DNA from: Duncaniella sp.
GTDB lineage: Bacteria > Bacteroidota > Bacteroidia > Bacteroidales > Muribaculaceae
DNA: 33,195 nt
Direction of reading: 5' to 3'
NCBI GenBank assembly: GCA_029056055.1
Contig: JAIDCC010000055.1
Coordinates: forward strand, 1 to 33,195
The position numbers and the translations under genes are program-made. Below, in pieces: positions 31,213-32,850 of the stretch. The notes beneath the pieces were generated by a model. The model did no database searches. It worked only from the letters and a program-made list of their open reading frames with translations, and was not told where the DNA came from. Within the stretch, counting starts at the first letter, position 1. Every line of letters begins with the position of its first letter.

Positions 31213-31260
31213 TGTCCGATTGTCCCACGACACGCCCTCGGCGCGGGACACCCGGGACAC
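31213..31260 (-). repeat. Family A palindromic repeat, copy 12 (joined to family B)
   Basis: TTGTCCGATTGTCCCA, then CGACACGCCCTCGGCG and CGGGACACCCGGGACA, running directly into the family B remnant at 31261. Same B-A order as at 166-272 when read on the minus strand. Confidence 0.8.
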
Positions 31261-31282
31261 CCCTACGCCTCCATGTACGGAC
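31261..31282 (-). repeat. Family B repeat interrupted by the IS110 element
   Basis: CCCTACGCCTCCATGTACGG followed by AC is the end of family B on the minus strand and stops exactly where IS sequence begins. The continuation expected from other copies (GTGCCTTCGGCAC) is found at 32710-32722 on the far side of the element. Confidence 0.75.
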
Positions 31283-31285
31283 TTT

Positions 31286-31293
31286 TACCTTTG
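31286..31293 (+). promoter_or_regulatory. -7 box at the IS left end (junction promoter half)
   Basis: TACCTTTG matches TAnnTTTG but has no TTG at the -33 distance in the integrated form. If the ends are joined, the right-end TTG at 32690-32692 falls 19-20 nt upstream. It would drive the noncoding RNA and transposase. Confidence 0.6.
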
Positions 31294-31339
31294 CAGAGTG
31301 AAATAAAGACAATAAAAAGCCAAAAAAATTGTTAAAAAG

Positions 31340-31486
31340 AAAGGCGGAGACAGTGAACTACGTACGGACATAGCTCTTAGTATCTAAGGCACGTCTTAGT
31401 CTGTCTCCACCTTTTGTGTTGGCCACATCAAACTAGATTTCTAGACCTTCATGTCTACTAAAAGTCCTGGATGCGTCAACACGCCA
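31340..31486 (+). ncRNA. Candidate bridge RNA of the IS110 element
   Basis: Two stem-loops can be drawn. Loop 1: AAAGG-C-GGAGACAG (31340-31353) pairs with CTGTCTCC-A-CCTTT (31401-31414), then ACTA/TAGT (31357-31360, 31397-31400). Its internal loop has GTACGGAC (31362-31369), identical to the left insertion flank 31275-31282, and AAGGCACG (31386-31393), complementary to the right flank 32709-32716. Loop 2: GTGTTG/CAACAC (31416-31421, 31477-31482) and CATC/GATG (31426-31429, 31470-31473). Its internal loop has CTAGATTTC (31433-31441), identical to the right end 32701-32709, and TAAAAGTCC (31459-31467), complementary to the left junction 31279-31287. Both have small apical hairpins. This is the layout of target-binding and donor-binding loops. 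Exact RNA ends unknown. Confidence 0.85.
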
Positions 31487-31512
31487 TTTTTAATTATTTT
31501 ACATACAAAGGT

Positions 31513-32541
31513 ATGAAAAATCTCTCAAACTTCCAACATTTCATCGGTTGCGATGTCTCGAAAGATACTCTCGACTTCGCGATCCATGCCCGTGGCACAG
31601 ACTACCGCCAGTTCGAACACCTTCAAGTAGACAACTCTGAATCAGGCTTCAAGAAGTTCTGCAAATGGCTGGGTTCAAACAAAATCAAACTCTCCGAGTG
31701 CGTTGTGGGCATGGAGCACACCGGCATCTATTCCGAGGGGCTCTCGCAGTGGTGTCATGCCAAGAAAATCGCTTTTGTCATGCTTCATCCACTCGAGGTG
31801 AAGAATGCCTCCTGCCGCGGCCGAAACAAGACCGACAAGGTTGATGCACAGTTTATTGCGCAGCACGTCTACACCTACCGTGAGGAGCTCACCGAATCCG
31901 ATGTCGAGCCGAAGGTCATCAACACCCTGCGCCAGCTCTACAACGAGCGCCGTCTGGCCGTCCGCACCCGCACGGCCTATTCCAATCAGGCCAAGACCGT
32001 TTCAGATGCGCGTGTCGCCCTGCGCATCGCCAAGACCATCGAACGTCTGACCCGGGATATCAAGGAAATAGACGCGGCCATCCGCGAGGAGGTTAACGCC
32101 GATGAAGCAATCCGCGAAAACTATGGGCTGCTGACATCCATCAAAGGCATAGGGCTTGTCAACGCCGTCCTCACCATTATAGCCACGGGCAATTTCACGC
32201 GCTTTCAGAACGCCCGGCAATACGCCAAATTCGTATGTGTCAGCCCGATGTCCCGAGAATCGGGAAGCTCCGTGAGAGGTGGCTGCCATGTGAGTCATGC
32301 CGGCCACTCGGAAATAAAATCCATTCTCACGGAGGCCGCCAGAGTCGCAATAGCGTCCGATCCGGACATGAAGGCATACTTCACACGAAAACGAGAGCAA
32401 GGCAAATCCTACGGCTGCGTGATGAACGCCGTCAAATTCAAACTGATCAGCCGGATGTTCGCGGTGGTAAAACGTAAGAAGCCCTACGTTGACGTCAACG
32501 CCTACCTCTCACAGAACACCACCCCTGCGGCAAGCGCCTGA
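31513..32541 (+). CDS. IS110-family transposase (DEDD / serine recombinase)
   Basis: RNA-guided recombinase of IS110 elements. The start at 31513 gives MKNLSNFQHFIGCDVSKDTLDFA (342 residues); the upstream in-frame ATG at 31471 lies inside the second stem of the noncoding RNA and is less likely. The N-terminal RuvC-like DEDD domain has Asp14 (GCDVSK), Glu68 (GMEHTGIY) and Asp108/Asp111 (NKTDKVDA). A helical middle (about 135-205) follows. The C-terminal Tnp domain has LTSIKGIGLVNAVLTIIATGNFTRFQNARQYAKFVCVSP near 207 and RESG with the presumed catalytic Ser250. HVSHAGHSEIKSILTEAARVA and the terminal YVDVNAYLSQ complete it. No frameshift or missing catalytic residue is seen, so the enzyme may be active. 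Confidence 0.95.
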   Translation: MKNLSNFQHFIGCDVSKDTLDFAIHARGTDYRQFEHLQVDNSESGFKKFCKWLGSNKIKLSECVVGMEHTGIYSEGLSQWCHAKKIAFVMLHPLEVKNASCRGRNKTDKVDAQFIAQHVYTYREELTESDVEPKVINTLRQLYNERRLAVRTRTAYSNQAKTVSDARVALRIAKTIERLTRDIKEIDAAIREEVNADEAIRENYGLLTSIKGIGLVNAVLTIIATGNFTRFQNARQYAKFVCVSPMSRESGSSVRGGCHVSHAGHSEIKSILTEAARVAIASDPDMKAYFTRKREQGKSYGCVMNAVKFKLISRMFAVVKRKKPYVDVNAYLSQNTTPAASA

Positions 32542-32708
32542 CCCCGAAGCAACAGAAAACTCTTCGGTCGGGGAGCGCCGCGCGGCAAGGGGCCGGACCA
32601 CCGGTCCCGACGAGCGCAACGGCGCTGAAGGTAATATTAAATGTTAAACCGGCTCTGCAATTTTAAGGAAATTTTAACACGTCCGATACTTGCAAAAACC
32701 CTAGATTT
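32542..32708 (+). other. IS right noncoding end
   Basis: CCGAAG/CTTCGG hairpin (32544-32567 area) just past the transposase stop may end its transcript. GC-rich inverted words follow (GGGCCGG/CCGGTCCC). The end is AT-rich, with TTG at 32690-32692 and CTAGATTT at 32701-32708. Confidence 0.55.
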
Positions 32709-32773
32709 CGTGCCTTCGGCACGTAGGCCATGCCGGGCGACAACAAATCGCAACGTAAAATATTACCTAACGC

Positions 32774-32822
32774 GCTGTGCATGAGAAACGTGCCGAAGGC
32801 ACGTCCGTACATGGTCGCGTAA
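32774..32822 (+). repeat. Family B repeat, intact copy (unoccupied IS target)
   Basis: GCTGTGCATGAGAAACGTGC, then the palindrome GTGCCGAAGGCAC and GTCCGTACATGGTCGCGTAA. The minus strand at 32796-32810 reads GTACGGACGTGCCTT, exactly the pre-insertion site reconstructed for the IS110 element. Confidence 0.8.
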
Positions 32823-32850
32823 ATTTTTGCCGATTTCATACGGATTGAAT

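Follow-up and report, generated by a model that had tools for sequence, protein, structure and literature searches.

The closest described systems are RNA-guided insertion sequences. For IS621 of E. coli, two papers (PMC11208160 / PMC11208158) describe an RNA in the left end with two internal loops, the 5' strands of which copy the top strand and the 3' strands of which complement it, a promoter formed at the joined ends, a recombinase with DEDD and Ser residues, insertion in REP-type repeats and a CT core present in both target and donor. According to the same work, strand exchange in IS621 is followed by pairing of the donor-loop handshake guides with positions 6-7 of the target, and those of the target loop pair with the donor; pairing with the cognate DNA blocks the exchange. 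In PMC11187229, an RNA from the noncoding region (seekRNA) selects the target of ISEc21 and of the IS1111-type elements ISEc11 and ISPa11; the RNA lies upstream of tnp in the IS110 type, IS1111 members usually having it downstream of tnp together with subterminal inverted repeats, and ISPa11 targets REPs. REPs were presented as insertion targets of IS elements in 2006, before the bridge RNA papers, in PMC1525189, and targeting of REPs by IS110 elements was already on record (PMC1525189, PMC11208160). Among the titles and abstract beginnings found for bridge RNA/IS110, seekRNA, bridge RNA/Bacteroid and IS110 with REP, none described a Bacteroidales bridge RNA; the mined sets of PMC11208160 may well contain such elements.

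The locus analysed here resembles IS621 in an RNA predicted in the left end with two loops, in the polarity of the loop strands, in a promoter-like motif at the joined ends, in the DEDD and Ser residues of the recombinase, in insertion at a REP-type repeat and in a donor-loop handshake with the target. It differs from IS621 in the guides themselves, in a single C shared at the crossover in place of a CT core, in a promoter-like motif of the Bacteroidetes type and, tentatively, in a target-loop handshake position that complements the target and not the donor. Its RNA is placed upstream of tnp, as in the IS110-type seekRNA elements and unlike the IS1111 group, and it appears to target REP-like repeats, much as in the 2006 report.

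In the window, i.e. the whole 33,195-nt stretch of Duncaniella sp. DNA that was analysed, an IS110-group insertion sequence of 1427 bp (31283..32709, + strand) was delimited by comparison with copies of the repeat that it interrupts. The left flank ends in GTACGGAC (31275..31282, + strand) and the right flank opens with GTGCCTT; when joined, the flanks gave the uninterrupted repeat sequence with nothing gained or lost, and the insertion had therefore left no target duplication, as is characteristic of IS110-group bridge recombinases. Two other contigs of the same genome begin inside the left end of the element and enter different sequences behind the shared CCATGTACGGAC, so the element interrupts three or more copies of the repeat. 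Three left ends were recovered from this genome (G000) versus only one right end, and the other two left ends showed at most one difference from the window copy over the assembled 77 or 84 nt. The right end, CTAGATTTC (32701..32709, + strand), matches the left donor guide and is the right end in nine elements, the right ends having been picked by a pattern that itself contains CTAGATTTC; only rows ending in CCTAGATTTC were accepted, which gave 19 flanks.

The element encodes a recombinase of 342 aa (31513..32541, + strand) with the domains DEDD_Tnp_IS110 (PF01548) and Transposase_20 (PF02371), both above the Pfam cut-off. Its matches in the PDB included IS621 (E 2.1e-25) and ISCro4 (PDB 9t56, E 1.6e-24), the comparison with ISCro4 covering the protein. 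Residues D14, E68, D108, D111 and S250 aligned with the catalytic D11, E60, D102, D105 and S241 of IS621 (numbering from the literature; the PDB chain runs two residues ahead, as counted by hand). The two domains and the aligned residues give the protein the combination typical of the IS110 group, a DEDD RuvC-like N-terminal domain followed by Transposase_20 with its catalytic Ser. Among plasmids and phages, relatives of the recombinase were found only below 60% identity, with 31.8% and 29.6% as the best among the matches listed, and a search of viral contigs, with a query able to find only close relatives, returned four stretches fitting the pattern and no transposase relative.

The initial annotation had read a bridge RNA by eye in the noncoding region upstream of this gene. 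All eight coordinate ranges it gave carry the letters and matches it described, and the four guide-to-DNA matches are exact. In the first loop, the left target guide (LTG) GUACGGAC (31362..31369, + strand) equals the left flank, and the right target guide (RTG), AAGGCAC with a core-pairing G (31386..31393, + strand), is the complement of CGTGCCTT at 32709-32716. It is followed by the target-loop handshake position UC (31394..31395, + strand). In the second loop, the left donor guide (LDG) CUAGAUUUC (31433..31441, + strand) equals the right IS end, and the right donor guide (RDG) UAAAAG (31459..31464, + strand), conserved in relatives, has its pairing partner, C+TTTTA, in the left IS end. The whole 3' strand of this loop, TAAAAGTCC (31459-31467), had been taken as complementary to the left junction. 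Of this strand, TAAAAG alone would be the guide to the donor; the UCC tail (31465..31467, + strand) does not read the donor, complements GGA of the target flank (31279-31281) and was assigned to the donor-loop handshake guide. In most relatives these last three letters are UUA or UUU. The donor loop thus matches both IS ends, as in the IS110 group. Neither LDG and RDG nor the ends of the IS vary within the close clade, so that the donor guides are supported by identity and position, not by covariation.

The predicted bridge RNA (31331..31485, + strand) was delimited by folding, covariation among 10 sequences and hits of a covariance model. Folding of 31283-31512, proposed earlier as a check, gave -63.2 kcal/mol with a z of -5.1, none of 200 shuffles being as good, and produced two stem-loops with the guides inside. 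The guides were said to lie in large internal loops, and they do lie in the interior of the stem-loops; the loops are open only in part, because the single-sequence fold closes some of their segments, e.g. by pairing GGAC in the left guide to GUC in the right one. The stem of the target loop is formed by 31341..31353 and 31401..31413 (+ strand), with 8 of its 13 pairs changed on both sides in relatives, and that of the donor loop by 31418..31429 and 31470..31481 (+ strand), where 93.3% of cells pair. The suggested covariation test, performed on 10 rows (G201 with the first loop only; two inner helices left out of the pair count), supported both outer stems and the donor-loop hairpin, with 95.8% of cells pairing. 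Nine pairs were changed on both sides (15 cells), which none of 500 shuffles equalled, and pairing fell to 26-47% when the stem registers were slid. Further pair types were no more numerous than in shuffles (194 of 500 as high), and much of the covariation signal came from G784, in which the target-loop stem has another sequence and still pairs. On structure only, the left end would thus carry the structured noncoding RNA upstream of tnp that marks the IS110 group. Rfam gave no bridge-RNA match at the gathering threshold over the whole window, and a relaxed E-value search of 31250-32750 returned five rows from unrelated families only (best E 0.31).

Close relatives of the recombinase (57-64% identity) were rare, being found in 3 of 297 family genomes at E 1e-80, with the element's own genome counted as a fourth. 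A covariance model, R1, was built from five left ends (G000, G134, G241, G115 and G310, the last of which shares its element and left flank with G784). Of 397 family genomes, 10 yielded bridge RNAs with this model, namely the five source genomes and five others (G006, G201, G032, G270 and G353); the finds in G006 were limited to an interrupted RNA and a remnant, and that in G201 was a fragment at a contig end. The element of G310 lies in identical context in G784, the genome of L022, which is of the same family, a species of Muribaculaceae being the most likely host. Genus searches with the RNA model yielded no additional elements. In G006, which belongs to the same genus as the window, the bridge RNA of L051 (contig C69) is interrupted after the target loop by a sequence that is found again elsewhere on that contig. 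A donor-loop remnant standing by itself, L054 (contig C5), lies near an apparent tRNA gene, as judged by eye.

Homologous elements whose loops do not follow their own flanks had been named as grounds for abandoning the bridge RNA reading. The loops were compared with permuted flanks, the conserved C serving to anchor the register, and the close clade tracked its flanks as a set. Averaged over ten elements, 7.6 of 9 LTG positions agreed with the own flank and 4.3 with the flanks of others (0 of 100000 permutations as good); among the last 8 bases, between 5 and 8 matched. Without the four bases next to the crossover, the values were 3.7 of 5 and 1.6 (again 0 of 100000). On these five outer bases the own flank was the best of the ten in seven elements, tied in two (G115 and G201) and was not the best in G032. 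Left out of this comparison were G241 (5 nt of flank on the contig), L038 (guide past the contig end), the remnant L054 and the distant elements. For the RTG, nine elements gave 4.7 of 5 for the own and 1.9 for other flanks (0 of 100000 permutations), with 4 to 5 of the first 5 bases matching; with 4 bases 2 and with 7 bases 1 of 100000 permutations did as well. Here G134 and G270b, for which no right flank was found, were left out, and the register was chosen manually on the alignment, skipping three bases ahead of the right guide. The weakest left fits were those of G032 (5/8) and G270a (6/8), and the weakest right fit that of G353 (4/8), G353 and G241 each matching 4 of the first 5. The target loop thus matches both sides of the insertion site and varies with it between elements, as in the IS110 group.

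The two ends lie on different contigs in G115, G032, G006, G201, G353 and G270, the pairing of ends was not established for G310, and the window, G241 and L032 each have both flanks on a single contig. Of the two G270 elements, G270a and not G270b was given the right flank L064, whose right end is identical to that of G241, a close relative. Beyond the close clade the outcome was mixed. L032, at 40% identity and outside the family, carries its left flank in the loop as a 10-nt match, GGTGCTGCTT (1 of 2000 shuffles with one as long), and its right flank starts with GGAAC, as predicted by its right guide when read by eye. L027 and L028 fitted in part, with LTG matches of only 6 nt that were not significant, and L033 had no significant left-guide match. 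The L029 row was no fair test, the flank rule having taken a wrong 5-nt flank, and L030 lacks the motif used.

The sequence on the right of the element, GTGCCTTCGGCACG (32710..32723, + strand), is the right target and a REP-like palindrome. It opens the rest of the interrupted dispersed repeat (32710..32826, + strand, end approximate), which holds a second, inverted and intact target site at 32798-32810 on the - strand. The 13-mer GTACGGACGTGCC was followed by GACGTGCCTT in 27 of 28 distinct sites from own-genome loci and the window, reading GTACGGACGTGCCTT; these sites were collected by searching with the 13-mer itself, and the two arms of a repeat each counted as a site. It has 77 exact copies in its own genome (arms counted singly) versus 0 for the backward control, and a single copy in 26 other genomes of the genus. 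Copies of the repeat, about 115-140 bp with inverted arms (CATGTACGGACGTGCCTTCGGCACG...), were seen in the own genome, e.g. at L002-L020, and in the window at 32710-32826 and 190-202. Judged by this distribution of sequences, the dispersed repeat is a species-specific REP/MITE-like family; a motif search of the own-genome loci did not find its mobiliser.

Among the 19 right flanks of relatives and the window, a palindrome begins within the first two bases in 14 versus 9.5% of 6000 random positions, and each of the nine genomes has at least one palindromic right flank (in G006 one of two, and weak). The clade appears to insert at REP-like repeats, the target loop going with the repeat of the host species: the target loop varies between species and the donor loop is fixed, and therefore each element appears to target the palindromic repeat of its own host.

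An origin of the matches by chance, or from the repeat itself, with the RNA region holding copies of the flank only since the flank is an abundant repeat, would be favoured by the great abundance of that repeat, with its 77 exact 13-mers in the own genome. In 5000 dinucleotide shuffles of 31331-31486, moreover, longest matches of the observed lengths (8, 8, 9 and 9 nt) arose singly in 107, 105, 49 and 62, i.e. each in about 1-2%. All four arose jointly in none of the 5000, however, relatives with other flanks carry those flanks in their loops, and the stems around the loops covary. A chance origin of the four matches was rejected on the joint shuffles and the tracking in relatives, and this reading is given a practically negligible probability. 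Guide tracking also weighs against the view that the RNA upstream of the gene does no more than regulate expression of the recombinase, as a 5' leader or an antisense target, with the protein picking the site. PMC11208160 mentions an earlier suggestion that IS110 noncoding ends regulate expression, and tnp of ISPpu9 is reported to be under the control of two sRNAs; a regulator alone would nevertheless not mirror, at a fixed register, the DNA beside each element, which makes this view highly improbable.

The explanation that accounts best for the data, held with great confidence, is that the window contains an IS110-group element which is probably complete, is present in several copies and brings its own predicted bridge RNA. 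Element boundaries, guide matches, tracking, stem covariation, the abundant repeat target, catalytic residues and the junction motif are all directly observed features of the DNA. The comparative support is strong and indicates that the RNA is a real bridge RNA, an additional case of a known RNA-guided recombinase system. A true bridge RNA in a dead copy, which spread in the past and is no longer mobile, is compatible with this explanation and concerns activity only. The full length of the other copies is not visible in the assembly, with one right end recovered in G000, as would suit a dead copy; against it, the recombinase frame is open with its catalytic residues aligned, the four guide matches are exact, and the two other left ends differ from the window copy by at most one position over 77 or 84 nt. 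Loss of mobility is thus considered rather unlikely.

When the right end was joined to the left end, a promoter-like motif, TTG-N20-TAnnTTTG, appeared in 9 of 9 elements tested, and with the same spacing in L032. In the window its -33 half (TTG) is at 32690..32692 and its -7 half (TACCTTTG) at 31286..31293, both on the + strand, 20 nt apart. TAnnTTTG corresponds to the Bacteroides -7 motif. With spacings of 19-21, there were 8 occurrences of the full motif in the 33-kb window, both strands taken together, and base shuffling of the window junction produced it in 4 of 20000 cases.

At the crossover, the target reads ...RC|X and the donor ...TC|T, with only one C common to both, so the element lacks a CT core shared by target and donor such as that of IS621. 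Two readings of the core were compared. With the last two flank bases as the core, the donor loop paired with the target at position 7 in 9/9 and at position 6 in 5/9 elements. With C and the next base as the core, the LTG paired at position 9 in only 7/9 (mostly by G-U wobble, and not in the window element) and the right guide in 9/9. In this second register, the better-fitting of the two and chosen after the data were seen, with G-U counted and G115 taken with its commonest flank, the donor-loop handshake of 9 elements paired with the target at 18 of 18 positions and with the donor at 0 of 18. It had been remarked that the GG of the last match lies in the flank, and this fits the pairing of the donor-loop handshake with the target. 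The target-loop handshake of 11 elements likewise paired with the target at 22 of 22 positions and with the donor at 0 of 22. Pairing of the handshake guides with the other DNA was thus seen for the donor loop and not, in contrast to IS621, for the target loop, a result that depends on the register.

The departures from IS621, one shared crossover base and a target-loop handshake reading the target, are proposed tentatively. They are weak evolutionary evidence, because they were recognised post hoc and the clade offers about two states (GAC and ARC), with TGC in L032, as read by eye. Under the IS621 rules such a target loop would be locked before the exchange, and the clade would therefore need another drive for it. 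It is conceivable, if on balance doubtful, that a Bacteroidales clade of bridge recombinases uses a single shared crossover base and a one-armed handshake, with the target loop rewritten to follow lineage-specific REP-like families. If so, the exchange would perhaps be driven by a gain of pairing on the donor side only, and the RNA would be a record of the co-evolution between the IS and the repeats of its hosts.

By analogy with IS621, the element would be excised as a circle, in which TTG of the right end and TACCTTTG of the left end would form a Bacteroidetes-type promoter transcribing the left end, and the resulting RNA would be bound by the recombinase. Loop 1 (LTG 31362-31369, RTG 31386-31393) would pair with the two strands of the REP-like site of the host, GTACGGAC/GTGCCTT, and loop 2 (LDG 31433-31441, RDG 31459-31464) with the circle junction CTAGATTTC/TTTTA, the recombinase then cutting beside the shared C and swapping strands without leaving a duplication. 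The bridge-RNA logic would thereby extend to a defined clade, most likely of Muribaculaceae, in which both flanks were tested. The clade offers a natural set of guide/target pairs, with right guides of up to 7-8 matching nt and guides that differ with species-specific repeats, as well as what may be a natural, directly testable exception to the IS621 rules for the core and the target-loop handshake. A recombinase native to gut Bacteroidales could also serve as a tool there.

Several minor observations concern the right end and its surroundings. In the right end of the IS, a GC-rich structured element of about 65 nt (32555..32620, + strand) has counterparts at 80-95% identity in 101 plasmid records. 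Of these, 95 are typed as mobilizable and most are from Bacteroides, Phocaeicola or Parabacteroides, including NC_005026 (2747 bp). No gene is listed at the site in most of the plasmid rows shown, and the element corresponded to no Rfam family. It was seen again at L024, L025, L027, L029 and L061 and at L089-L091, and the right ends of several IS110 relatives have it. No copy was found in the right ends of L022 (G784) and L026 (G115), in which another motif (GTTTGTGGGTA / GCTTGGGGTA) is present twice between the stop codon and the right end. In G241 (L025), a gene with an IPNHVHILL motif (HUH/Y1-like) directly adjoins the IS110 right flank, from about position 1497 on the + strand, and presumably resembles a Y1/RAYT transposase. 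In the window, the end of the contig (32850-33195) is taken up by another family of dispersed palindromic repeats (GGACGCGCCATGGCGC), and similar sequence adjoins the IS in contig C129.
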